This document shows positions 26,176 to 48,943 of a stretch of DNA of 50,748 nucleotides, piece by piece. Made by a program: the position numbers and the translations under genes. Numbering within the stretch: the first letter of the stretch is position 1; each line of letters opens with the position of its first letter. This stretch comes from Alphaproteobacteria bacterium (lineage in GTDB: Bacteria; Pseudomonadota; Alphaproteobacteria; Geminicoccales; Geminicoccaceae), in NCBI GenBank assembly GCA_030431615.1, contig JAUIID010000008.1, positions 1 to 50,748 on the forward strand, in the 5' to 3' direction. Under the pieces are notes generated by a model. It did not search any database and had not been told where the DNA came from. It saw only the letters and a program-made list of their open reading frames with translations.

Positions 26176-26499
26176 TGTTCGTCATCCTTTTGTCGCTGAG
26201 GTCGCTGAGGTCGGCGCGCGCGGCACTTGTGCCCGGCGCGGCTATGCGAACCCAACCACTGCAGGCTGCCAGCGTTCCATCGTGAGCCTCGCTCACGTCG
26301 GGCCGTGCGATGATGCCGTCGGAGGGTAACCTACACCTCCCGGTACAGCCGGCAAGCCGCTGGTTTCAACCTCGGCGATCCGTCATGGCGCCGCGCTTTC
26401 AGAACCGTTCGGGTTCCCTCTTACGCGGCTGCCTCGACGGCGAGGCGGCGGGCTCCAAAAATGCCTTTGGCCCGCAAGGGAAGGATGATCGACCAGAGA
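26176..26499. other. Intergenic stretch without genes
   Basis: It holds the upstream region of the sulfotransferase gene and leads into the repeat element. There is a short direct duplication GTCGCTGAG-GTCGCTGAG near 26192-26209. I see no gene here. Confidence 0.4.
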
Positions 26500-26628
26500 A
26501 GGATTTATAACCTATTTCGTATCCCCTGTCCAGATGCCCTTCGGTTCGTTCGGCAAATCAGGCTTTCCGGCCGGCGGGCGGGCCGGGAGAGGCGGCGAAA
26601 GCCGCGGCGGGGCTCGCCCCGGGCTCTC

Positions 26629-26750
26629 GGGTTCGTTGGTCGGCGCTCGGGTTCGTTCGCGATTCGGTGGGTTCGATTGCCGATTTGGCGGGTTCGTTCG
26701 CCCTTTCCCTGGGTTCGTTCGTCGGTACGGCGGGTTCGTTCGCCCGCAAC
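26629..26750. repeat. Six 20-21 bp tandem units (copy A)
   Basis: Each unit starts GGGTTCG(T/A)T and is followed by a variable 11-12 bp. The unit length is two turns of B-DNA. Confidence 0.9.
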
Positions 26751-26906
26751 TGTCGCGTTATACGCGACACTTGTCATAATACAGTCGCGGTATCCGCGAC
26801 ACGAGGGGCCTACTGTCGCGTTATATGCGACACTTGCCGTCAAACTGTCGCGTATAGCGCGACAGTCCCGGGTTTGGCGGAAGCGATTGTCGCAGAATCT
26901 GCGACA
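26751..26906. repeat. Five TGTCGC-N-GCGACA palindromes (copy A)
   Basis: Palindromes lie at 26751-26769, 26784-26800, 26814-26832, 26845-26865 and 26888-26906. The second reads GTCGCGGTATCCGCGAC where copy B has GTCGCGTTATACGCGAC. The fifth reads GTCGCAGAATCTGCGAC where copy B has GTCGCGGAATCCGCGAC. Both differences keep the dyad. Confidence 0.95.
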
Positions 26907-27124
26907 TGCCGAGAGCCGGCGAATGGAAGGGCGGAGGGCCTCGGCGGGCTTGCATCCGACGGCCAGGGTCAACCGGGATGCAACGCCGACTGCTATGTTT
27001 TCTACAACCAGCTTAATAGGGAGCAAGTCATCCGAACAGGCATCTCCGAAGAATTACGTCATGCGTCGCTCCTGTCAATGCTCGATCCCGGCGCGAGCAG
27101 GTTGTCTGGAAAAACATTCTTCAG

Positions 27125-28336
27125 TCAACTGAATCTTGTTGTAAATTCTTCTATTGCATTACACGTCTCATCGATGTCATCGAGAGAATTGTATAAATGG
27201 GCCGAAACCCTCAACAATCCACCATCAGCACCCGCCCGATGCACTAACGGATGCGCGCACATGGAACCGGATCGCACCATGATATTGTGGTTTTCGCTTA
27301 GCGAGGTCGCCACCGTATCCGATGTGATGTGAGGCGTTGAGAATGCAAAGGACACCAACGGCAATCGATCGGGCTGATCCGACATCAGAGAGCGGGCGCC
27401 GGGAATTCGAACTCCTCGCTCAGACATTTGATTGGAGAGCGTAACCAAGTGCGCTCGACGCTCTTCAATCGGCATGGCGCTCAAGAACTGCGCGGCAGCG
27501 GCGAGTCCGATCACCCCTGAAATGTTCGGTGTGCCAGCTTCAAAGCGATAGGGGACGTCTCTCAATACAAAGCCATCGCGAGTAACCGATGCGACGCTAC
27601 CACCACCAATGACGTACGGAGTCAAACGCTCCAACGCCTCGGGTCGTCCAGCCAAAACTCCAGTTCCGGGCGGCCCGAACATTTTGTGACCGCTGAAAGC
27701 AAGAAAATCACAGCCGAGCTGATCGAATTCAATCGGTTCGTGGCTAGCGGTTTGCGAGGCGTCAACACATGTGCTTATTCCATGTCGAGCGGCAATGGCG
27801 CATAAAGTTCGAATGTCGTTGACCGCACCTGTAACGTTCGATCCAGAAGAAAAGACAAACATACGTGGTCGGTTCGTCGCGATCACTTCCTCGAGGGTTC
27901 GCCCATCTACGGGCGCGCAAACCTCATGTTCGATCCATGCGAGTTCGCAAAGCCGCATCCAGGGCAATATGTTGGAGTGATGCTCCCCGATCGGAAGCGC
28001 CACTACGTCCGAGCGGGTGAATCCAAACCCATTGGCCACCATGTTGATCGACTCTGTCGCATTCTTCGTGAATATAATATTTCGTGGTGCCGTGCCGACA
28101 AATCGACCCATGACCTCACGCGCGGTCTCGTATTTCTCTGAAGCAATTTCAGAGAGCCTATGATGACCGCGATGAATATTAGCGGTATACGAAGTTGCAT
28201 ATTCGCGCTCTGCCTCAATGACGGTAGAGGGCTTCAACGTCGTCGCCGCCGAGTCCAAGTATCGCAGTGGCTTACCCGATCCGCAACTGGCCAACATCGG
28301 GAAACAATGCCGCAAGGCAGGTAGGTCAAATTTCAT
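27125..28336 (-). CDS. SufS/CsdA-like cysteine desulfurase
   Basis: A 403-residue class V aminotransferase. It has YLDSAATTLKP near the N-terminus, PLP-contacting HH at 119-120 (IGEHHSNILPW), Asp192, the Schiff-base Lys218 in SGHKMFGPPGTG and the persulfide Cys360 in SGSMCAHP. All catalytic residues are present and length is normal, so it is probably active in taking sulfur from cysteine. Base composition is clearly lower in G+C than the neighbours. No suf or isc partners are nearby. It lies 18 nt downstream of a PaaK-like adenylase gene and forms an operon with it, which suggests sulfur transfer to an activated carboxylate, not Fe-S assembly (inference). Confidence 0.88.
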   Translation of the reverse strand: MKFDLPALRHCFPMLASCGSGKPLRYLDSAATTLKPSTVIEAEREYATSYTANIHRGHHRLSEIASEKYETAREVMGRFVGTAPRNIIFTKNATESINMVANGFGFTRSDVVALPIGEHHSNILPWMRLCELAWIEHEVCAPVDGRTLEEVIATNRPRMFVFSSGSNVTGAVNDIRTLCAIAARHGISTCVDASQTASHEPIEFDQLGCDFLAFSGHKMFGPPGTGVLAGRPEALERLTPYVIGGGSVASVTRDGFVLRDVPYRFEAGTPNISGVIGLAAAAQFLSAMPIEERRAHLVTLSNQMSERGVRIPGARSLMSDQPDRLPLVSFAFSTPHITSDTVATSLSENHNIMVRSGSMCAHPLVHRAGADGGLLRVSAHLYNSLDDIDETCNAIEEFTTRFS

Positions 28337-28354
28337 AGACAGTATACCAGCATA

Positions 28355-29851
28355 TTACTCCGCATACACCATCGGTGTTTTGTATGAACGCGCAAAAGTT
28401 AACGCCTCAACCCTCCTGATACTAATGTCATGATCGAACAACAATTCTCGCAGCGCGTCGACAAGTGCCAAGGGTACAAAATTCTCTTCGCTTTCCACAA
28501 GTACGTCAAGCCGAATACTATTGTCTTTTTTGCTACAGGCAAGTTGGTATGCACCCTCGCGAATGAATGGATCAACAGCGTTATCAATAGCCCGGGGGGT
28601 GACAAAACCGGTCTCTGTCGGAATCGCCTCAATTGATCTGCCATGAAATGTGAAACACCGCCAGTTCGATGCGGCGCATCCACAGTGTATCTCACCCTCA
28701 ATGCATCCCATATCCCCGGTTTCATATCGCATGAGCGGACTCACACGATTCGCGAGGGTCGTCACAACGATCGAGCCGACATTCTTCGACACCTCGCGCG
28801 TTCGCGGATCGACGAATTCCACATAGCACTGGCTCTCATTCAGATGCCAGTTGCCCTCGGAGCATTCAAACCCGACGTTGCAACCGCCAAGCTCGGTCGC
28901 AGAATAAATATTGCGCACGGGGCATCTATATCTTTTCTCAAGAAGTCGTCGCTGGCACTCCGGCATAAATTGGAAAGACGTCAGTATTATATCAACGCTG
29001 GGAACCGCCAACCCTAATTCTTGCGCCTTGTCGGCCAAAATGTGCAAATAATATGGATTGCCAAATATTATCGACGATCGAAATTCAGAAATTTCCGAGA
29101 AAGTATAATCAATAAAGTCCCTATCGATCCTTGAAATGTCGAATGTCGATTCGAGATACAAAGTGTGATCGCCAATCATCCGGTCTGAGCGCTTTTTCCG
29201 TCCAATATTGCAGTCATTTGAACCGCATAGCGGTGATGTCAAAACTGATGTTCGAGGATGGCCGTCAACGAATGCAACGTCCCAAACAGACTCGTAGTCG
29301 GGCGGCATTCGGTCAATCCGCAAATCAGTCAGCACCTGAACCCGATCGGACGTTGAACCGCTTGTGCGCGCGAAACGCAGCGCTCCATCTGACAAAAGCG
29401 TCGAAGTATCAATGTTACTACTGATTAAATTCAGAAACTCTCTTTTCAAGATGTCCTTATTAATTATTGGCAGCTCGACGATTTCATCTAATGATGTAAT
29501 TTCGTTGCGCCAGTAGGCATCGCCAATGCTGTAGAATGGGACGAATGCTTTCGCATGCTCATAAACTTCAGAGATACGCTCAAGCGTTTGAGAATCCCGA
29601 AGGTTGGTAACTATCGGTCGTTGCCGATCCTGCACCTGTTCGATCGGAAGATCGCCGACGCACCCCACTTTTTTTAAGAACGATAGTATTTCGTCCGGTA
29701 TTTCAGTTTCCGAGGTAACGTCCACTGCCCCGAATTCGATATCAAATATAAAGCCAGTACGACCGTCCCGAACTTGCAAGAGATCGGGTGCCAATAGCGA
29801 TACAGAAACGCTATGATGGCAGATCGATTTCAGTTTCTGCTCGATACTCAT
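28355..29851 (-). CDS. PaaK-like adenylate-forming enzyme
   Basis: A 498-residue protein. ANL-fold motifs are present: TSGSTS (163-168), IYSATELGGCNVGFECSEG (about 355-373) and SPLMRYETGDMG (about 415-426). This resembles phenylacetate-CoA ligase and CapK. The first 65 residues (SLLAPDLLQVRDGRTGFIFD, then EIPDEILSFLKKVGCV) are extra to the fold and have a small-domain look, possibly like a PqqD/RRE domain; this is a guess. ATG 29851 (MSIEQKLKS) is used because upstream codons belong to an IS630 remnant. Low G+C marks it as acquired. The substrate is unknown. Confidence 0.8.
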   Translation of the reverse strand: MSIEQKLKSICHHSVSVSLLAPDLLQVRDGRTGFIFDIEFGAVDVTSETEIPDEILSFLKKVGCVGDLPIEQVQDRQRPIVTNLRDSQTLERISEVYEHAKAFVPFYSIGDAYWRNEITSLDEIVELPIINKDILKREFLNLISSNIDTSTLLSDGALRFARTSGSTSDRVQVLTDLRIDRMPPDYESVWDVAFVDGHPRTSVLTSPLCGSNDCNIGRKKRSDRMIGDHTLYLESTFDISRIDRDFIDYTFSEISEFRSSIIFGNPYYLHILADKAQELGLAVPSVDIILTSFQFMPECQRRLLEKRYRCPVRNIYSATELGGCNVGFECSEGNWHLNESQCYVEFVDPRTREVSKNVGSIVVTTLANRVSPLMRYETGDMGCIEGEIHCGCAASNWRCFTFHGRSIEAIPTETGFVTPRAIDNAVDPFIREGAYQLACSKKDNSIRLDVLVESEENFVPLALVDALRELLFDHDISIRRVEALTFARSYKTPMVYAE

Positions 29852-29871
29852 AACGGCCAGGAAAAACTCCG

Positions 29872-30488
29872 TGGTGGATTGCTTCCAACACCTGATTCCC
29901 ACATTTGTCGGCGGCGATGATGGCCTTCGGGTCCGCCCACGAGGCGGACGTGAAGTGGTAGGTCCAGAAGAATGGCGTGACGATTCAGCCAAGCTTGCGC
30001 CTTGGCGTGCTTGTGAGCGGTGCAGGTGTCGAACATGACGTGGAGCGAATTGCCGACCGGTATCTGCCGTTCGGCGGCATTCAGCAACTTATGTCGATGG
30101 CGCTGCGGACTTCGGCCGATGACGGTGCCATCGAGCATGTAGAGCGCGGCAGAGAGGATGATGGTGCCATCGCGCTTGTGGTTGGGGGCGCTCGGCGGCC
30201 TCACTTCATCGGCAGGCCCAACTGGGTCGGTCTCAGCGTCTGAGACTGCGCCTTCTCGTCGATCGACAACATTACCGCACGTTCCGCCGGGTCGAAACAG
30301 AGCCCGATCACTTCTTCGCCCTTGGCGGCGGAGACTTGATCGTTGAACAGCCTGGACTTCAGGAAGCGATCTGCCGCCAGCCCATTCTCTTGCCAGATTC
30401 GGTCCACCATTTCGGTCGAGACGCGATTCCCCTCGGTCATAACCCGCACGGTCCAATATGTGGCACTGGCCGTCCGTTCTACCTCCAA
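29872..30488 (-). pseudogene. IS630-family transposase remnant
   Basis: Frames must be switched at least twice to follow the protein. One part reads RVSTEMVDRIWQENGL and AVMLSIDEKAQSQTL...TQLGLP (DDE region start). Another reads HKRDGTIILSAALYMLDGTV and HVMFDTCTAHKHAKAQAWL. A third reads HFTSASW then IAADKCGNQVLEAIH. The N-terminal DNA-binding third is missing. It is therefore dead and truncated. It ends about 20 nt upstream of the adenylase start and may have brought or disrupted that operon's promoter. Confidence 0.85.
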
Positions 30489-30574
30489 TGCAAGCCGCAG
30501 CCCCCCGCCGCCCTCGTCACCGCAAGCTTCAGCCGGACCCTACCGCGCATCAGACCATCCACGTGCTCCTCGCA

Positions 30575-30613
30575 GGAAAAAGGCGCACCTCTTTGTCGAG
30601 ATGCGCCTTTTCC
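30575..30613 (-). terminator. Intrinsic terminator after tiny peptide gene
   Basis: On the minus strand a stem GGCGCA(T)CTC, loop GACAAA, GAG(G)TGCGCC is followed directly by TTTTT. The stem extends with GGAAAA/TTTTCC on the outside. It starts three bases after the stop codon of the 21-residue ORF. Confidence 0.8.
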
Positions 30614-30616
30614 GCG

Positions 30617-30682
30617 CTACACTGCGGTGACAGTGGCCACCGGCTTCGCGTTCGGCTTCGGGTTGGCGAGCTTGATCTTCAT
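30617..30682 (-). CDS. Putative 21-residue peptide gene
   Basis: A tiny ORF with ATG at 30682, preceded 7 nt upstream by a strong Shine-Dalgarno (AAAGGGGA) and followed at once by an intrinsic terminator. The product begins MKIKLANPKPNAKP and ends VATVTAV; it has four Lys, three Pro and no Cys. I know no family for it. Options are a bioactive or RiPP-type precursor, an antitoxin-like or leader peptide, or an mRNA-level element. It lies upstream, on the same strand, of the IS630 remnant and the adenylase/desulfurase pair, but the terminator separates it from them transcriptionally. Confidence 0.5.
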   Translation of the reverse strand: MKIKLANPKPNAKPVATVTAV

Positions 30683-30781
30683 GTTCCAGTCCCCTTTGGG
30701 TTACTGTTTCAGAAGCGTTGAAGCCACGAGCGCCCGGATCACTTCAGGAATGCACGGCGTTCGGCACTCCAACAAGGTGCG

Positions 30782-30810
30782 AGATCACAACAGACCAGCG
30801 AGAATGTCAA
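30782..30810 (-). promoter_or_regulatory. Putative promoter of tiny peptide gene
   Basis: A perfect TTGACA (minus strand, 30810-30805). Weak -10 candidates are TGATCT (17-bp spacer, 30787-30782) or TGTGAT (15-bp spacer). It lies about 100 nt upstream of the peptide ATG. Confidence 0.35.
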
Positions 30811-31441
30811 CTAAGGTTATTCGATTTTGTGCGTGGCAGCCTGATTGTGCGGGGTTAGGCAATGTTTTGCTCTTCGACGTTTAAAGCAGCCGCGAAATCG
30901 CTGACTTTCATGATTTTGATGAGCCGGCCGATCCGGTCGGCACCATCGAGCAGACACCCACTGCGCATTCGGCGGTGTCGGCGGGCCCGATGCGGCTGCC
31001 TCCCCACGGGTGTTCAAGGTTCAACGCTGGTGCAAGGCATACGCTGATGCAACTGCCCATCCATCGCGCACCAGGAGACGACAACGGCTGAGGAATTGCC
31101 TTTCAGCGCGGAATGCGTTCTGCATTATGCGATTTTAAATAAAATAAACGCATCAATGAAATATGGACGAGTTATAGATCTAGCACCAGTTCATTCGTTC
31201 TCAGATATGCCCGTCATTATAACTATAATATGCCTTACTATTTATCAAATCAGCCCTGTTTTTGGTATTCCGATAGCGAATTACTATCGGAAACATAGGA
31301 ATAATGATAATAAATTCACAGGATTGGCGCTGATTGCACAAATCGTTCATCCGCCAAACAGCGCTTCCTTGAACAGATGTTCAGAATGTCGACTTGGTGT
31401 CGTCAGCTGGAGCCGGCCAAAAAAAAAGGTTGCGGATGGGC
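30811..31441. other. Non-coding stretch with A+T-rich patch
   Basis: No gene is supported here. About 31100-31400 is strongly A+T-rich compared with its surroundings. An open frame from 31096 runs through it into the mtlK remnant, but it has no domain, no ribosome-binding site and changes composition halfway. Confidence 0.5.
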
Positions 31442-31463
31442 CCGGGAAGGCCTGCCTTCCCGG
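31442..31463. repeat. Dispersed hairpin repeat, copy 1
   Basis: CCGGGAAGGC-CT-GCCTTCCCGG, a 10-bp perfect stem inside GGATGGGC...GGAAT, 15 nt beyond the 3' end of the mtlK fragment. The same motif is at 40356 and 47430. Confidence 0.9.
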
Positions 31464-31477
31464 AATCCTCTTCCCCC

Positions 31478-31891
31478 TCACCGCCCCAGATACGCCTTGA
31501 GCGTCGCCTCGCAGCCCTCCGCCCAGAGCTGGGTGAGCCAGCGTTCGAAGGGGGTGGTGAAGGCTTTGTTTGTGGCGAGGTCGCCGTAGAGGTTGGGTTG
31601 GTCGAGCCAGGTGCGGGGGTTGGTGCGGGCGGCCCTGGCGGCCTTGGTGAGCTCGGGCCAGAGGGGGTCGTTGGGTTCGATGGTGGTGCCGTCTTCGCGC
31701 GTACCTTCGCACATGCGGGCCCAGAGGGCTTCGACGAGGGCGAGGCCGTCCGTCGGGGTGCCGGAGGCCAGGCCGTCCCTGGGGATGGGGAGGACGAAGC
31801 CGGTGTGGCGGGCGGAGAGGTCGAAGGCGACGCGGCGGGTGGTGTCCTCGATGGCGGGGTTGGCGAAGCGCCGGTCGATGGGCTCGACAGG
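31478..31891 (-). pseudogene. Truncated duplicate of mannitol dehydrogenase 3' end
   Basis: This piece aligns along its whole length with the last 417 nt of the mtlK gene (47477-47893) and keeps its stop codon and its downstream hairpin repeat. The protein reads ALWARMCEGTREDGTTIEPN...GDLATNKAFTTPFERWL. Homology breaks sharply after GCTCGACA at 31891, four bases before the Stf0 sulfotransferase stop. By eye the two copies differ at many positions, so the duplication is not recent or came from a related allele. Confidence 0.92.
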
Positions 31892-40373: not shown

Positions 40374-40625
40374 TGATTCATCCTGCCCCTTCTCCGCGTG
40401 GCCCGGTGCAGGCGACCGGGTGAGCGCTGAAAGCTCCGAGCATGATCTACCCGTTCGCGCCGCCGCGCCGCGACCGGCGGCGGGTGAACCACTGTAGGAT
40501 TTATACCCTATGACGCGCGCGCTGTCCAGCGCTTGTCGGGTTCGATCGGCAAAAGCGGGTTCCTGGCGTGTCTGCGGGTGCGGCAAGGCGGTGGAAAGGC
40601 ACGGCTGGGCTGATTTTGGGCTCTC

Positions 40626-40747
40626 GGGTTCGTTGGTCGTCGGTCGGGTTCGTTCGTCGATTCCCTGGGTTCGATCGTCGATTTGGCGGGTTCGTTCGCC
40701 CTTTCCGTGGGTTCGTTCGTTGGCCCTGCGGGTTCGTTCGCATGGAA
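40626..40747. repeat. Six 20-21 bp tandem units (copy B)
   Basis: Units start GGGTTCG(T/A)(T/C); the first is 20 bp, the rest 21 bp. In copy A the first two units are 20 bp, so the frames of the two copies differ. Confidence 0.9.
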
Positions 40748-40904
40748 CTGTCGCGTTATACGCGACAGTTGTCATAATACTGTCGCGTTATACGCGACAC
40801 CAGGGGCCAACTGTCGCGTTATATGCGACACTTGCCGTCAAACTGTCGCGTATAGCGCGACAGTCCCGGGTTCGGCGGTGACGGTTGTCGCGGAATCCGC
40901 GACA
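40748..40904. repeat. Five TGTCGC-N-GCGACA palindromes (copy B)
   Basis: Palindromes lie at 40748-40768, 40781-40799, 40812-40830, 40843-40863 and 40886-40904. All arms are perfect except one position in the third, which has G opposite T in both copies. Confidence 0.95.
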
Positions 40905-40948
40905 TCCCGAGGGGCGGCAAACGGGCCGTTGGATGGCTTCGGCAGGAT

Positions 40949-41667
40949 TATTCGGGGAAATTCTGCGCCGGTCGGCGATATTCGTCGGCGTGGCGGTGAA
41001 AACCGCGCTGAATTATCTCGTCGTGTGCTGGCAGTTCTTTTGTGGTCGCTGCATCTCGTCCGGCAAACGCGTCCGGCCAAGCTGTCAACGAAAAGAGCGG
41101 CCATGCTGGTAGCGCTACGACACCTCGGCGCTGGGTGCAACAGTGACCAAGTGTGAGACTGGACGAGATCGATCCACCTCGCTGCGCGTCAGTTCGGTCG
41201 GTAGCTTTTCCCATGGCGCTACGAGAACAGCACCGAAGTTCGGGCGTCGAATGGCGAAGGTCGCAAAGATCACGCCAGATCACACAATCAGAGACGCTGC
41301 GTCTGATAAGAAAGATATCTCAGGCTGAAATTCTGCTTCACATTGGCAGTGCCTGGTTGTATCTATTAGGATAATACGCTATCATTTTATCCGCCGTCGC
41401 TGAAAGGTAATATCGTCCTCGCATCGGGCATTGTGTGAGGCAGACAGCGCTCACCCACTAAGCCCAGATGTTAGCGTGTTGGCGGATTCGTCGCTGTTCG
41501 CGCAGGGAGCGTGGTCCGCGACCCGATGACCGAGCGTCACAGCTGAGAGATGGTGGGCGCGTCGCCTAGTGGAACCGAGTCGCCACATGGTAGAAACGCT
41601 CGTCAATGAGAACAGATCCTCTCGATGTCACTGTCATTGGAATCAATCGTTCCAGGGAGATCCAAAA
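40949..41667. other. Intergenic region upstream of the giant secreted protein gene
   Basis: No gene is supported. Base composition falls in G+C from about 41200 onward, matching the acquired gene downstream. Confidence 0.5.
41357..41385 (+). promoter_or_regulatory. Possible promoter upstream of giant secreted protein gene
   Basis: TTGTAT (41357-41362) and TATCAT (41380-41385) with a 17-bp spacer in an A+T-rich patch. It would give a 5' leader of about 280 nt. Confidence 0.3.
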
Positions 41668-44600
41668 ATGAAAAATCTCTTTGTCGCGAGACTGCATCCA
41701 TTTTTGGCAATTCTACCCTTACTCCCCTTAATATTTATCTCCTCCTCTGCAAAATCGCAGGTCGCGTCAACCGATCCAGCTTCAGGAATAAGTCCCAACC
41801 TTATGCGAGTACAGCCGTTAGACAACAGCACACCGACGGCGCTGTTCATGGGGGTTTGGGAACCAATGCTCGGCGGTGGCAGCTGGTTGTCTTTTGATCT
41901 TGACTTTACAACAGCGGCTGACCCTCTCGACCTCCTTGAGGCACGAGTCACCTATCGCGACGATACGGGTGCAGCAGTCGCGAATGCGACCGTTGGCCCC
42001 GATGAACTCGCTCTCGCCGTACTAAAGCAAATGGACGCTACCACAGGCACCTCTCGTGCACCCGCGTTTGACAAGACCGGCGGAACGGTTACTGATTTTG
42101 GCAGTATCGCCAGCCAGTGCATACACGATCTCGAGATCGATTCAATGGGCTTCATAGTCGCCGGTGGCACCGGCGTATTTTCTCCTCCACTTGAATTTGG
42201 CTCAAGGCCCCACGGTTCCCTTATTGCTCGTTATACAACGACGGGTGAACTTCATAGCTCATTTGACGAAGATGGAAAGAATAATGTAACTTTTGAACAC
42301 CCTTTCGATAGTAGTGCCGAATTTCATCATGGGATTAACGCCATAGCAATAGATCCACTGTTACAGATTTGGACCGTCGGCTACGCTATTCTTGATGATT
42401 TTCCGGACGATGGAGAGGCCACGAGCCGATGGGCGCTATCGCACCTGGAGTTTAGTGGAGAACTTGATGAGGCGGTTGGAGCTAAAGTTTTGGGCTCAAC
42501 GACGGACGGTGGTCGACTATTTGATGCTCTCTTTCATAACGGACGTTTAATTGCTGTAGGAACTCTCGGCGAACTCGGTTCCATCGGAACTCAGGACCAG
42601 CAAACTGTCGCTGCCATCGCTGCGTTTGATCTGGCTGGCGAAATTGATCCGAGTTTCGGTCTAAAGACTGCCACATTCTTGCCTGATGATACAGTTTCCG
42701 CATTCACAGCAGTCGCCATTGATAGCGCGGACCGCATCTATGCTACCGGGTGGTTCGGTCTACCCGACCCAGACATTCCTGATCCTGAACCTGACGACAT
42801 CATTCATGAGGATCGGACTTGGTTCGTCGTAAGGTATCTTCAAAGTGGAATCGTAGACGAGACCTTTGGAATCGCTGGACTCTCTGAGATCGACTTCGTT
42901 GGGTTTGACCGCGGATACCCTAAGGCAATTGCCATTGATGGCTCCGGTCGAATCGTGACAGTTGGTACCGTCGAGGTCGGGCAAGGCATCGGCTCGCAGA
43001 ACGCGGCTATTTCAAGGCTTCTGCCTACCGGTCAACCCGATCCAACCTTCCAACCCCTACAACCGGGCGTTGGGCAACTTGTAACCGATGGCGGTGCCTC
43101 CCCCATAAGCGCAGGAGGCGTTGCCGTTGACGGAGATGATCGCATCATTGTCTCTCTTGGACCTTCGCTCCTGCGTCTCGTTAGCGACGATGGGAGCCTA
43201 GACCCGAGCTTCGGCGACCAGGGGAGGGCTTTTCTGCACCATCCGGACACCAACGATAATTTCGGAGGGACCTCCATTGTCGTCGATGGTAGTCGCATCC
43301 TGGTGGGTGGCTGCAGTGGTGATAATTTTGCCGTCGTGCGACTGCTCGAAGATGGGAGACTTGACAGCGACGGGAACTCGATCCCGCCCAACTCAAGAAT
43401 AATACTAGCGTTTCCGGATGAAGCGTTGCCCGACGAGACCCGCGTAATGCCTCTGCCTGATCCCCTTCCAACAACGGTCGATGTAGAACTCGATGTAGGC
43501 CCAAGTGATGCCGACGGCGTCTGGACTCTCAGTTGGGTCGACATTCCAGTTCTTGATCAACCTGGGAAAACTTTTCTCAACGGATCCTACATCTTTCCTC
43601 TTGCGCCAACGCAAGTCAATGTCTCGCTGCCTGATGATGCAACATGCCAAGCGGCAAACACCGCCACCCCCGAAGCCCCAAAACTGCGGTACGGAATTTC
43701 TCAGGCCCACGAACTTCGTTTCGAAGATAACTATTCTGGTCACAGAAATCTAGTGCAATCGATCAATGGTCCGAACGCGTCAAATGACCAACGTTTTGCT
43801 TATGATTTCGTTGTCGAAGATCAAAGTGGTCACAGATACCTACAAACGGACAGCGATTGCCTACCAACATCGGAAATCACGAACGCTTCCTCGTATATTT
43901 GGGGTCAAAGTGTCGTCGCGATTGCAGATGGCGACATCGTCAACATTGACACCGCCCAACCGGACAATCCTGAGCCTGGCACCAAAACCCCTGACATACC
44001 GCGTGGTGGCAATACTATTACTATCGATCACCGCAATGGCCAGTATTCTCGCTATTCACATTTGATGGCAAACTCGGTTCCAAAGAAATTTGCTGAAATA
44101 TCTTCCTGTTCCGGAATGGATGTTTGCACAGTCAAGCAAGGCGAGGTATTGGGTCTCGTGGGCAATTCGGGCAACTCGACCGGCCCACATTTGCATTTTG
44201 CGCTAATGGACGGCGCGGACGCCGACCAAGATGAGGGGAGACCGATCTCTTTCAATAACACGCTCGTCGGTGGAATGATTCAGACCAATGTCGGATTCCA
44301 CACGGGTACCATTTTCAGCGGCATTCTACCTCAATCATCGAAAATTCAGCTGAATACACCGTCTTCATCCGGAGCAATTTGGGAGGTCGAGAACAACGAT
44401 TCACTCGAATCTCACCAAGCTCTGAGCCTTCCAGCGACTGTAACCGGAAGCATATCGTCACTAGAAAATCCGACCCTTGCGGTTCGAGGGGATCCAATCG
44501 AGGATATATACCGCTTCGAGGTCAAAACGCGTGCGCAGCTGAAAATCGAACTCGTAGCCGAGAGCGATGGGGTCAATCTTGATGTCTACCTTCTGAACGA

Positions 44601-45672
44601 CGGTCTGCAAATGCTGAATCTCGATCGTGCCGGATGGGGACCGACTTCGAACGAGACCGTCTCGATGGTTGTTCCGCCCGGACACTACTACGTTGGGGTG
44701 TCAGAAGCTGAGAATTTCCCAGGCAGCGACTACAAATTGATTGTCGATGCTCGTCCATTTGCGTGGAAATATGCCGCGAAGGTCGTCTGCGGCGAACAAA
44801 GTAATCCAGGGGACGGTCGGCTTACCGTTGGCACCTACGCCACCACGGTAAACATCCATCATCCTGGTGGCACACCGGCGTTCTTATCGAAACAACTGGC
44901 ATTAGCGTTTCCTCCAGATGAACAACAACCTGGGCAAACATTGGATATCGGCGAAGATAGTCTTGGTTATGATCAAGCAGTCAAAACCGATTGCGGCGAC
45001 ATTTTGGAGACTGCGCTTTCCCCACAAAATCTTGGAGAAAATACGTACTTTGAGGGCTTCGTTGTGATCCAAAGCACCGAAAAACTAACTGTCTCTGCGG
45101 TCTATACTTCTGCGGATCTGACCGACGGACGCGGCCAGCGATCAATAGATGTCGAGACTGTTCCGGAGCTTGGGTTGGGCGTCGATTTGCAAATATCAAA
45201 GTCGTTACTACGACCTGAAGAGATCGACAAACAAAGCCAGTTAGGACAGCGGCTCATTGCTCTACAGGACAGTCTGACCGAGGATGTATGGCATAACTTT
45301 TTTGTGTATCAGATTGAGATTGGGAATCTTGGGCCTGCGACTGCAACTGATGTCAGGGTCGTTGACATCCTAGAACTGCGGTCGGAAGACAACGTTGGAG
45401 TTCTCATAGATGAATCTGCATTTGAGTTTCCGCCTGGCGGAAAACTGATTGGCCTTGAATCCTTATCGCCGCTGAGATCTACACGCGCAGAGATTTCGGT
45501 CGGTGGCATTGCGCCTGGCACAACCAAGACGCTGAGGCTCGCAGCAGTGGCAGTGGGAATTGCACTTATTGAAACTCCGCAAGGTTCAGTTCAGAATACG
45601 GCAACCATACAGGCTGGCGAGGCGGAACTTTTACAAGACGACAATACAGTACAAATTACAACTTTATTTTGA
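41668..45672 (+). CDS. Giant secreted multidomain protein: delta-60 repeats, M23, PPC, DUF11-like
   Basis: A 1334-residue protein with signal peptide (1 to about 29). Residues about 135-570 hold delta-60-type repeats (DETFGIAGLSEIDF, DPSFGDQGRAFLHH), probably a beta-propeller. An M23 peptidase-like domain spans about 677-855: Asp713 in FAYDF, HRNGQYSRYSHL and His841-Leu-His843 in GPHLHFAL. A usual first zinc His before Asp713 is not obvious, so activity is uncertain. A PPC domain lies at about 905-1030 (WEVENNDSLESHQ...PPGHYYVGVSEAE), and a DUF11-like domain at about 1170-1310 (QIEIGNLGPATATDVRVVDI). GGGAGA precedes ATG 41668. Low G+C suggests transfer. It is probably a cell-surface or released protein acting on cell wall. 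Confidence 0.8.
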   Translation: MKNLFVARLHPFLAILPLLPLIFISSSAKSQVASTDPASGISPNLMRVQPLDNSTPTALFMGVWEPMLGGGSWLSFDLDFTTAADPLDLLEARVTYRDDTGAAVANATVGPDELALAVLKQMDATTGTSRAPAFDKTGGTVTDFGSIASQCIHDLEIDSMGFIVAGGTGVFSPPLEFGSRPHGSLIARYTTTGELHSSFDEDGKNNVTFEHPFDSSAEFHHGINAIAIDPLLQIWTVGYAILDDFPDDGEATSRWALSHLEFSGELDEAVGAKVLGSTTDGGRLFDALFHNGRLIAVGTLGELGSIGTQDQQTVAAIAAFDLAGEIDPSFGLKTATFLPDDTVSAFTAVAIDSADRIYATGWFGLPDPDIPDPEPDDIIHEDRTWFVVRYLQSGIVDETFGIAGLSEIDFVGFDRGYPKAIAIDGSGRIVTVGTVEVGQGIGSQNAAISRLLPTGQPDPTFQPLQPGVGQLVTDGGASPISAGGVAVDGDDRIIVSLGPSLLRLVSDDGSLDPSFGDQGRAFLHHPDTNDNFGGTSIVVDGSRILVGGCSGDNFAVVRLLEDGRLDSDGNSIPPNSRIILAFPDEALPDETRVMPLPDPLPTTVDVELDVGPSDADGVWTLSWVDIPVLDQPGKTFLNGSYIFPLAPTQVNVSLPDDATCQAANTATPEAPKLRYGISQAHELRFEDNYSGHRNLVQSINGPNASNDQRFAYDFVVEDQSGHRYLQTDSDCLPTSEITNASSYIWGQSVVAIADGDIVNIDTAQPDNPEPGTKTPDIPRGGNTITIDHRNGQYSRYSHLMANSVPKKFAEISSCSGMDVCTVKQGEVLGLVGNSGNSTGPHLHFALMDGADADQDEGRPISFNNTLVGGMIQTNVGFHTGTIFSGILPQSSKIQLNTPSSSGAIWEVENNDSLESHQALSLPATVTGSISSLENPTLAVRGDPIEDIYRFEVKTRAQLKIELVAESDGVNLDVYLLNDGLQMLNLDRAGWGPTSNETVSMVVPPGHYYVGVSEAENFPGSDYKLIVDARPFAWKYAAKVVCGEQSNPGDGRLTVGTYATTVNIHHPGGTPAFLSKQLALAFPPDEQQPGQTLDIGEDSLGYDQAVKTDCGDILETALSPQNLGENTYFEGFVVIQSTEKLTVSAVYTSADLTDGRGQRSIDVETVPELGLGVDLQISKSLLRPEEIDKQSQLGQRLIALQDSLTEDVWHNFFVYQIEIGNLGPATATDVRVVDILELRSEDNVGVLIDESAFEFPPGGKLIGLESLSPLRSTRAEISVGGIAPGTTKTLRLAAVAVGIALIETPQGSVQNTATIQAGEAELLQDDNTVQITTLF

Positions 45673-45987
45673 TGGACTTGGCATTTCATTTGAGCTCGTC
45701 GTCGGATATTTCGGAATAACAAGAGGTGCCTATTTGATGCGTGATAACACCAGTTGCAGACGGCGCCTTGGCGCGGATCGATGATTTGCCGATCAGGAGT
45801 GCGGCATGGCAATCCTGACCTCTCCCTATCATCCGAGCCATTGGGAGCTATAGTTTTCCGATGTTCGATCCTTGAAGGGGGAAGGCTGTTGAAGCGCGGT
45901 CGGTCCAGCTAGGAACCCCCGGATTGATCTGCGTCACCGATCCCGTAGTGGAGTGTATTCGGATTGTCGGTCGACTTTTCTGTCCAT
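45673..45987. other. Intergenic stretch without genes
   Basis: I see no coding region and no clear terminator in the 315 nt after the giant gene. Composition returns to higher G+C along it. Confidence 0.4.
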
Positions 45988-46110
45988 TTAGCATTCTTGA
46001 GTGACGAATCGCTGGACCGTTTCCCACGGCCTTCGGCCCTGGTTCCGATAGCCCAGATGCGGCCTCTCCCGGTTGTAGTGGTGGAGCCGGGCGGTCGATG
46101 GCGATTGCGC
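45988..46110 (-). pseudogene. Integrase-core transposase C-terminal remnant
   Basis: The minus strand encodes about 35-40 residues typical of the end of IS3/IS481-type integrases: HHYNRERPHLGYRNQGRRPW followed by ETVQRFVTQEC and a stop. The rest of the gene is absent; the IS630 element lies 130 nt further on. Confidence 0.75.
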
Positions 46111-46242
46111 CCAGGTCATGTTGTCGCTTCGGGGCGGGCTGATTGCCGCTGAGACGACCGTAGCGGGAGAGCGTCTGGACTGGCGCTCAGCGACAGAGGC
46201 GGTCTAACGGAGATCGACCGGACTTGCCAACGGCTTCAGCTA

Positions 46243-47345
46243 GAGCGGGTTCCTGAAAGATAGAATCATTTCAGGGATTCCCAACTTTTGATAGATGTGA
46301 TTCAAGCTGTTGGCTGGACGAGGAGGCCAGCCATGGATGCCGCGTCCCTATTCGAACGACCTGCGCCAGAAGATAGTCGAGACGGTCCGGCACGTCCCGC
46401 CGGCAGGCTGCCGGGCAGTTCAAGGTCAGTGTGAGCTTCGTCATCAAGCTGCTGCAGCGGGTGCAGGCGACCGGTGACGTGTCGCCGGCGCAGTTCGGCG
46501 GCTACAAGGTCTCACCCCTGGCGGCGCACGAGGCGGATCTGCGGCGCTGGGTGGCCGAGCGCTCGGAGATCACCATCGCCGAGCTGCAGTCACTCCTGTC
46601 GGAGCGTGGCACGAAGACGAGCCCGGCGGCCCTTGCGAGGTATCTCGGCAAGCTGGGCCTGACGCGAAAAAAAGTCGGCAAGAGCCGCCGAGCAGTCGCG
46701 CGCGGACTTCGCCGCGGCCCGCCAGGCCTGGCTCGGCTGGCAGCGCGGATTGAGCCCCGGCAAACTGGTCTTCGTCGACGAAACCTGGACGGCCACCAAC
46801 ATGGCGCCGCGCTACGGCCGTGGCCCGAAGGGGCAACGCGTCGATGGTATCGCACCGCACGGACACTGGAAGACGACTACCTTCGTCGCCGCACTTCGAC
46901 ACGATCGGATCACCGCACCCTGTGTGTTCGACGGACCGATCAACGGCGCCGCCTTCAGGGCCCTCCGCCGCCTCCTGGCGGCGTCCATTCCATGGATCGG
47001 ATCATCCGTCTGCTGACGGATGATGGACCGAGCAGGCCCTCGTGCCGACGCTGGACCCCGGCGACATCGTCATCCTCGACAATCTCGGCAGCCACAAGGT
47101 CGCCGGCGTCAGGACAGCCATCGAGGCCAAAGGCGCCAGGCTCGTCTACCTGCCGCCCTACAGCCCGGATCTGAACCCGATCGAGCAGGTCTTCGCCAAG
47201 CTCAAGCATCTCTTGCGCAAGGCCGGCGCCCGAACCGTCGAGACCCTGCACGATGCCATCGGCAGCCTGCTCGACGCGTTCTCGCCAACAGAATGTCGTA
47301 ACTACATCACAAACTCGGGCTATTCCAGGTAAACGGGAAACGCTC
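46243..47345 (+). mobile_element. IS630-family insertion sequence
   Basis: About 1.1 kb. The ends are GAGCGGGTTCC (left) and GGGAAACGCTC (right), imperfect inverted repeats, each flanked by TA, the target dinucleotide that IS630 elements duplicate. The transposase inside is broken. Confidence 0.8.
46337..47332 (+). pseudogene. IS630-family transposase, frameshifted
   Basis: ATG 46337 (MPRPYSNDLRQKIVETV) has AGGAGG 10 nt upstream. The frame is lost near 46389, resumes as TSRRQAAGQFKVSVSFVIKL, is lost again at an A7 run (46667-46673), resumes as SPGKLVFVDETWTATNMAPR, and shifts once more near 47000 before VPTLDPGDIVILDNLGSHK and PPYSPDLNPIEQVFAKL. The DDE residues (VDE, LDN, NPIE) all remain. 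The A7 shift could once have been programmed, as in some IS630 relatives; the others are mutations. Confidence 0.88.
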
Positions 47346-47429
47346 TAGTCGATCTGCGGGAATTGATCGCTGCCCGTGCGGCCACGCAGCTACGGTGGAA
47401 CTGCCACCACGCGAAGAAACCGGATGGGC

Positions 47430-47451
47430 CCGGGAAGGCGTGCCTTCCCGG
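47430..47451. repeat. Dispersed hairpin repeat, copy 3
   Basis: CCGGGAAGGC-GT-GCCTTCCCGG, 26 nt beyond the mtlK stop codon. Context GGATGGGC before and GGAATC after match copy 1. It could act as an mRNA 3' hairpin for mtlK. Confidence 0.9.
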
Positions 47452-47476
47452 AATCTCATTCATTCCCCTGCCCCCC

Positions 47477-48943
47477 TCACCGCCCCAGATACGCCCTGAG
47501 CGTTGCCTCGGCCCCTTCTGTCCAAATCTGGCCGAGCCAGCGTTCGAAGGGGGTGGTGAAGGCCTTGGTGGTGGCAAGGTCGCCGTAGAGGCTGGGTTGG
47601 TCGAGCCAGACCCGGGGGTTGGCGCGGGCGGCTTTGGCGGCCTTGTTGAGCTCGGGCCAGATGGGGTCGTTGGGCTCGATGGTAGTGCCGTCCTCGCGGG
47701 TACCTTCGCACATGCGGGCCCAGAGCGCCTCGACGAGGGCGAGGCCTTCAGTCGGGGTGTTGGATGCGAGGCCGTCCCTGAGGATGGGGAGGACGAAGCC
47801 GGTGTGGCGGGCGGAGCCGTCGAAGGCGACGCGGCGGGTGGTGTCCTTGATGGCGGGGTTCGAGAAGCGGCGGTCGATGAGCTCGACATAGGCCTTGGGG
47901 GTCATGCCGGGGACGGCGTGGACGTGGGGGGCAATTTCCTCGTGCTCGACCTTGCGGAAGAAGGGGCCGATGAGGGGGTGGGCCATGCAGGCGGCGATGG
48001 TGGGCACGGCCAGGATCTCGCCGGCATTGGCGAGGACCTGGTGGCCGGCATTGAGGATGCGGATCTTCATGGTCTCGTAGTCGTGGACGCGATCCGTGAA
48101 GGTGGCGCCGGCGCGGTCCCAGTCGGGTCGGCCGGCGCAGAAGCGGTCCTCGATCACCCACTGGCGGAAGTTCTCGTGGGTCACGGGTGCGGCGTCGTCG
48201 ATGCCGAGCGAGCGGACGAGGGCGAGCTCGTCCGGGCCGGTCGCCGGGGCGATGCAGTCGACCATGGAATTGGGGAAGGTGCAGTTCCGGTCGATCCAGT
48301 CGGCGAGGCCGGGATCCCTGAGCCTGGCGAGGGCGACCGTGGTCTGGCGGAGGATGGTGCCGTTGCCCTGGAGGTTGTCGCAGCTCAAGGCCGTGAAGGG
48401 GCCGTGGCCGGCGGCGCGGCGGTGCCTGAGGGCGGCGATCATCGCGCCGAAGGCGGTGCGCGGGGCGTCGGGGTTGGCGACGTCGTGGGCGATGTCGGGG
48501 TGGGCGGCATCGAAGGCACGGCTCACCGGGTCGACATAGTAGCCGCCCTCGGTGACGGTCAGCGCCACGATGCGGATGGCGGGGTCGGCCATGGCTTCGA
48601 TGAGGGCACCGTTGCCCTCCTCGATCGGGACGTAGCCGATCATCGAGCCCACGATTTCGGCGGACCGGCCGGAGGGGTCGAGCTCGATCAGCGTCGTCAG
48701 GCAGTCCTGCTCCAGGAGCTTCTGGCGCATGGCGGCGTCGTAGGCGCGCACGCCGGCGCCGAGGATCGCCCAGTCCAGGGCCTGGCCCTCCTGCATCAGG
48801 CGGTGGAGGTACCAGGACTGGTGGGCGCGGTGGAAATTGCCGACGCCGATATGGACGATGCCGGGCCGGAGCGTGCTGCGGTCGTAGCGCGGTCGCAGGA
48901 TGGTATCGGGCAGCCGGTCCAGGTTGGCGTTCGACAGCTTCAT
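47477..48943 (-). CDS. mtlK: Mannitol 2-dehydrogenase family protein
   Basis: A 488-residue polyol-specific long-chain dehydrogenase. The NAD-binding motif is IVHIGVGNFHRAHQSWYLHR (about 29-48). The catalytic region has HENFRQWVIEDRF and MKIRILNAGHQVLAN, with the Asn and His of the NxxH motif. Full length. It oxidises mannitol or a related polyol to the ketose in the cytoplasm. It follows the ABC ATPase gene by 58 nt, and the permease lies upstream of that, the usual Smo/Mtl operon. Its last 417 nt exist again, diverged, at 31478-31891. Confidence 0.93.
   Translation of the reverse strand: MKLSNANLDRLPDTILRPRYDRSTLRPGIVHIGVGNFHRAHQSWYLHRLMQEGQALDWAILGAGVRAYDAAMRQKLLEQDCLTTLIELDPSGRSAEIVGSMIGYVPIEEGNGALIEAMADPAIRIVALTVTEGGYYVDPVSRAFDAAHPDIAHDVANPDAPRTAFGAMIAALRHRRAAGHGPFTALSCDNLQGNGTILRQTTVALARLRDPGLADWIDRNCTFPNSMVDCIAPATGPDELALVRSLGIDDAAPVTHENFRQWVIEDRFCAGRPDWDRAGATFTDRVHDYETMKIRILNAGHQVLANAGEILAVPTIAACMAHPLIGPFFRKVEHEEIAPHVHAVPGMTPKAYVELIDRRFSNPAIKDTTRRVAFDGSARHTGFVLPILRDGLASNTPTEGLALVEALWARMCEGTREDGTTIEPNDPIWPELNKAAKAARANPRVWLDQPSLYGDLATTKAFTTPFERWLGQIWTEGAEATLRAYLGR

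Follow-up and report, generated by a model that had tools for sequence, protein, structure and literature searches.

A non-coding module of roughly 450 bp, in which a predicted outward-facing promoter, a run of iterons and a row of palindromes follow one another, is a discrete unit with at least 38 copies in the genome of an uncultured alphaproteobacterium (Geminicoccaceae) and further copies in related MAGs. We give an about even chance to the interpretation that this element is a dispersed promoter-operator module under selection at each locus, for which we infer the binding proteins, the promoter activity and the regulatory role from the sequence.

Two copies of the element lie on the forward strand of the window, that is, the whole stretch of 50,748 nucleotides analysed here. 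Copy A (26492..26951) and copy B (40488..40949) can be aligned with 81% identity across their whole span, and their flanks differ. An earlier sequence-only reading had located both copies, but its spans of 26500-26950 and 40496-40948 were slightly short of the homologous unit. By direct reading, we confirmed its description of six GGGTTCG units followed by five palindromes in the same order in both copies. The six iterons with the junction occupy 26629..26750 in copy A (starts at 26629, 26649, 26669, 26690, 26711 and 26732) and 40626..40748 in copy B (starts at 40626, 40646, 40667, 40688, 40709 and 40730), all on the forward strand, with a pitch of 20-21 bp. While the six-unit array stood, a seventh unit beside the promoter, GGTTCGTTCGGCA at 26543..26555 (+) in copy A, had been overlooked; the promoter-proximal iteron of copy B, also read directly, is GGGTTCGATCGGCA at 40538..40551 (+). 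The five phased palindromes, TGTCGC-N7-GCGACA, follow on the same strand at 26751..26906 in copy A (starts at 26751, 26783, 26814, 26846 and 26888) and at 40749..40904 in copy B (starts at 40749, 40781, 40812, 40844 and 40886). The reported spacings of 32, 31, 32 and 42 bp are present in A and in B, and palindrome 2 of copy A has a single arm mismatch (AGTCGC). On the reverse strand, the outward promoter is predicted at 26504..26532 in copy A (-35 TGGACA 26527-26532, 17-bp spacer, -10 TATAAA 26504-26509) and at 40500..40528 in copy B (-35 TGGACA 40523-40528, 17-bp spacer, -10 TATAAA 40500-40505). The window also contains an 87% direct repeat (31433-31889 and 47421-47888), made up of a 3' fragment of a mannitol dehydrogenase gene and the 3' end of the intact gene. 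Considered jointly with elements A and B, this repeat suggests a single old segmental duplication, from which the two window copies probably derive and hence are not independent.

We searched the 5.3-Mb assembly of the same genome (G000, 314 contigs) with a composite pattern in which the last iteron is joined to the first palindrome. This pattern, allowing up to 3 mismatches, gave 40 matches, a few of which are second or chance matches; the reversed control gave 0. One further copy was recovered via the iterons, bringing the total to at least 38 copies, 37 of which were analysed in detail. The statement that the element is present twice holds for the window alone, as the genome carries these copies between unrelated genes. 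The general plan has a fixed order, with the promoter at the left border, normally 4-6 iterons every ~21 bp and normally five 19-bp palindromes. Copies retaining both ends measure 439-494 bp between borders, and no conserved reading frame was seen in the element copies. The elements at L032 and L036 are 87% identical over ~445 bp, from TAGGATTTATA to CATAACGATTCGTGATGG, and their flanks are unrelated. Together with L030, these two form a subfamily whose iterons do not all point the same way, some being inverted. The copies at L034, L039 and L048 are partly degenerate, and ~144-bp tandem repeats with 84-92% identity occupy L039:1-652 at a contig end. According to a gene finder trained on the codon usage of the genome itself, the elements are intergenic. 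Their neighbours are ordinary genes (PAS/GGDEF, glycosyltransferases, ABC, metabolic enzymes), and the flanks have no family in common except the frequent PAS, GGDEF and ABC proteins. The genomes carrying the element are fragmented MAGs.

At the left border, TTGNNN-17-TATAAT-like boxes face away from the array and are followed by TCCTA, and a GGTTCG unit is placed immediately upstream of the -35 box. From the consensus, these boxes are predicted to be a conserved sigma-70-type promoter. A promoter score of at least 13.4 was obtained for 78% of the 37 copies in the outward direction, compared with 0% in the opposite direction and 4% for dinucleotide shuffles. The spacer between the -35 and -10 boxes is exactly 17 bp in 31 of 37 copies, and conservation reaches 62% in the -35 box and 65% in the -10 box against 44% in the intervening spacer. 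Likewise, a TTGNNN-17-TATAAT-like site was found in all 19 elements tested from other genomes, many with TTGACN-17-TATTAT. The element thereby has the predicted outward sigma-70 promoter on a dispersed repeat that defines mobile promoters of the Correia/PMP type. In 25 of 36 cases, the gene next to the promoter has its 3' end facing the element, usually within 50 bp, which is a modest orientation bias (p 0.029). No uniform helical phase was seen for the distance between promoter and array. The sequence-only reading had missed this promoter, the number of copies across the genome and the way in which the palindromes differ by lineage.

The palindromes keep a strict spacing. Among 143 spacings, 139 are 31/32 or 41/42 bp (32 bp in 98, 31 bp in 38, 42 bp in two and 41 bp in one), and the remaining four sit in partly degenerate arrays. 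Because a turn takes 10.5 bp, ~31.5 and 42 bp correspond to three and four turns, and the spacing, where it changes, shifts by a whole helical turn. The proposed helical phasing was borne out, including in copies elsewhere, where a loss of the spacing had been named as one refuting outcome, and the geometry is as expected for cooperative dimers. The arms are perfect in 162 of 180 palindromes, and the identity of the spacers between copies is ~40% for the first three and 56% for the fourth. Such far-diverged spacers indicate that the copies are mostly old. Since arms, iterons and promoter are intact nonetheless, selection seemingly acts on each locus, and constraint per locus seems the simplest explanation for intact arms in old copies.

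Of 32 genomes in the family, only those of a single genus (G000, G001 and G002) contain the iteron array; isolated matches in the others are without an array. A search of ~85,000 species genomes for the exact iteron pair found it in the Geminicoccaceae/Rhodospirillales MAGs JAABSG, SLRI and CAKZLS, in one Myxococcales-labelled contig and in an unrelated cyanobacterial stretch. The contig from the Myxococcales-labelled MAG (L083, JAGQIT010000410.1) carries a single G000-type element and is probably mis-binned; otherwise, it would represent a transfer. We rejected the cyanobacterial match (L088), which has just two units without the architecture, and a weak match in G007, a short two-unit match just upstream of 16S rRNA without the remaining element. 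Promoter, iterons and 31/32-bp ruler are all retained in the relatives, but the palindrome arms vary by lineage: TGTCGC in G000, TGGCGCA- or TGAGTCG-type in G001/G002 and CGTTGC-type in CAKZLS. One copy in G000, L067, has a mixture of palindrome forms. Element positions mostly differ between related species. Two pairs, L032/L065 and L047/L049, lie after orthologous genes of different species in the same orientation and are apparently at orthologous positions, an assignment resting on the flanking genes because the variable parts of the elements are not alignable. An empty site was found in G001 (C235), where the ortholog of the gene adjacent to L025 has no element after it; for L018, the search for an empty site did not find the orthologous flank.

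In the promoter-operator module that we propose, the five palindromes would be bound cooperatively on one face of the DNA by one putative dimeric protein, and a second putative site-specific protein would bind the 21-bp iterons, including the one beside the -35 box. A nucleoprotein complex of both proteins might then act as the switch of the outward promoter. Transcription from this promoter would enter the 3' end of the neighbouring gene in antisense at 25 of 36 copies and follow the sense direction of the neighbour at the rest. The copies together could constitute the regulon of a master DNA-binding protein, and a drift in the specificity of this protein, followed by all copies, would result in lineage-specific palindromes. 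We put forward only tentatively, as a possibility rather than an expectation, that such a chromosome-wide regulon is wired by a copied multi-operator promoter module, whose operator was re-tuned in concert in each lineage under a fixed helical ruler, with the master protein co-evolving with nearly two hundred sites. Counted against the module are the mostly antisense promoters, for which a benefit is not obvious, the few degenerate copies, the modest orientation bias, the lack of a uniform phase between promoter and array and the fragmentation of the MAGs. Dispersed bacterial repeats are usually viewed as decaying mobile debris, whereas here almost all copies seem to have preserved a complex protein-binding array amid scrambled filler DNA, and related lineages exchange the site sequence under an unchanged geometry. 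This raises the questions of how a repeat can spread a regulon and how a DNA-binding protein can shift its specificity along with ~190 sites.

One alternative is a non-autonomous, MITE-like mobile element. The iterons and palindromes could be the assembly site for a transposase or recombinase encoded elsewhere, and the arrays would be conserved since only intact copies would move. The sharp borders and unrelated flanks of the dispersed copies, presence or absence between species and the restriction to a genus are consistent with this explanation. So is a TAAGC-N3-CGTGA-type motif, which is found within spacer 2 in about one third of the copies; those copies mostly have another one at the right border, 65 bp beyond the last palindrome. 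However, terminal inverted repeats are absent, as the left border starting with TAGGATTTATA is not an inverted copy of the right border ending in CATAAGCGTTCGTGATGG. Nor did the 10 copies with both borders show a target-site duplication, the mean best match being 0.6 bp against 0.5 bp for shuffled pairs. On both counts, the element falls short of a strictly defined MITE. No linked transposase or recombinase was found among the 25 most frequent of the 127 flanking families, and the spacers are mostly too diverged for recent copies despite perfect arms, an upkeep that a purely selfish element does not need. We therefore regard a MITE-like nature as unlikely, if conceivable. The elements could alternatively be landing sites for foreign DNA, at which accessory islands enter on the palindrome side. 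We compared 35 element-bearing gaps with 319 other gaps of the same loci, counting a gap longer than 3 kb as an island. Islands of 3-6 kb with 54-56% GC were present on the palindrome side in 4 of the 35 element gaps but in 0 of the 319 others (p 8e-5). These low-GC islands with atypical codon usage are found in the window at 26952-31432 and 40950-47420, at L023:7430-12076 and at L048:5690-8996, and one of them carries a GmrSD-type restriction gene (PADLOC HEC-05-like) and a Schlafen AlbA_2 gene. On the other hand, 31 of the 35 copies are without an island, and the two window copies do not count independently given their probable common duplication. A distant blastn gave no match indicating a plasmid or phage origin, and three patterns searched in viral contigs had no match. 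An integration boundary as the main role disagrees with the dispersal of at least 38 copies among ordinary genes, and the landing site appears very improbable to us. A low-GC island of the window includes, at 41569-45672, a gene for a 1367-aa protein with M23 peptidase, PPC, DUF5122 and DUF11 domains.

Phased multi-site arrays throughout the genome, with two copies 10-22 kb apart on several contigs, could also serve to organise the nucleoid or segregate the chromosome through an architectural protein, similar to MatP/matS or ParB/parS. In the genus, each genome has one ParB_N gene and two perfect canonical parS, which lie beside the ParB gene. ParB is thus an unlikely binder, and a centromere-like site for ParB found no support: the element palindrome is not a ParB site of the TGTTTCACGTGAAACA type, and no extra ParB gene was found. 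A segregation site would not need a conserved promoter either, nor does the mostly different placement in related species fit such a site. In plasmid centromeres, of which sopC of F is an example, a tandem palindrome array is bound cooperatively, with one site per plasmid beside the partition genes. Unlike sopC, the element has at least 38 copies without linked partition genes and an attached promoter. We consider a role in segregation or nucleoid organisation improbable. Replication iterons, also suggested by the sequence-only reading, are likewise at odds, as the main role, with so many copies (at least 38) scattered next to ordinary genes, and we rejected an iteron replication origin, as no Rep family was found among the 25 most frequent of the 127 flanking families. 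The palindromes might instead function in RNA, as hairpins within the 3' UTR of the gene upstream. The element is often placed between the stop codon and the next terminator-like hairpin, and the palindromes would fold as RNA. However, the combinations at palindrome positions 7/13 are GC 57, GT 49, AC 48 and AT 8, so that A.C mismatches are as frequent as G.U and A-U pairs are avoided (Fisher p 5e-5). An RNA stem would prefer A-U and G.U over A.C. The observed pattern favours DNA half-sites, from which it would be expected if pairs of weak halves were avoided. Moreover, an RNA role gives no reason for a strict 31/32-bp spacing across near-random spacers, and Rfam identified only a tRNA-Ser in the window. 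We find an RNA element scarcely credible. REP/BIME repeats, with units of 20-40 bp forming RNA stem-loops, were rejected because the element is a ~450-bp composite with a promoter and no RNA-type pairing constraint.

The element matched no known family in the libraries searched, in line with its earlier description as undescribed, and we found no published description of the repeat in the open-access literature. None of the known systems we found combines a dispersed outward promoter, modularity and sites that follow the lineage. BrickBuilt of Porphyromonas gingivalis, with ~19 intergenic copies, internal 23-nt tandem repeats, outward promoters able to give antisense transcripts and restricted hosts, resembles the element in its intergenic copies, internal short tandem array, outward promoter and restricted host range (PMC4596501). 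BrickBuilt differs by terminal inverted repeats of the MITE type, target-site duplications at some copies and a repeat number that expands and contracts, and neither a phased palindrome row nor a lineage-wide site change was found for it in the text consulted (PMC4596501). Correia elements of Neisseria are also dispersed and intergenic with a sigma-70-type promoter, and their protein-binding site is one for IHF; however, they are shorter (204 bp in the original report), have terminal inverted repeats and lack a multi-operator array (PMC10969869). BOX of Streptococcus is likewise a modular composite repeat with a tandem central module, but has been analysed mainly as RNA-folding modules and is without the plan of a promoter plus phased palindromes (PMC3049150). 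The stoperators of cluster A mycobacteriophages share with the element many dispersed sites and a consensus that varies by lineage, which for stoperators changes together with one repressor (PMC6550527). Stoperators are single 13-bp sites in a phage genome (PMC6550527), whereas here arrays of five palindromes with iterons are found on the chromosome.

GANTC sites are enriched 4.4-fold in the elements, with 6.6 per kb against 1.5 per kb in the surrounding loci. We rejected a promoter controlled by CcrM (GANTC) methylation, as neither the genus nor three other genomes of the family have the CcrM RAMA domain. In the 37 elements of G000, GANTC occurs 56 times at iteron positions 14-18, compared with 31.5 under column independence.
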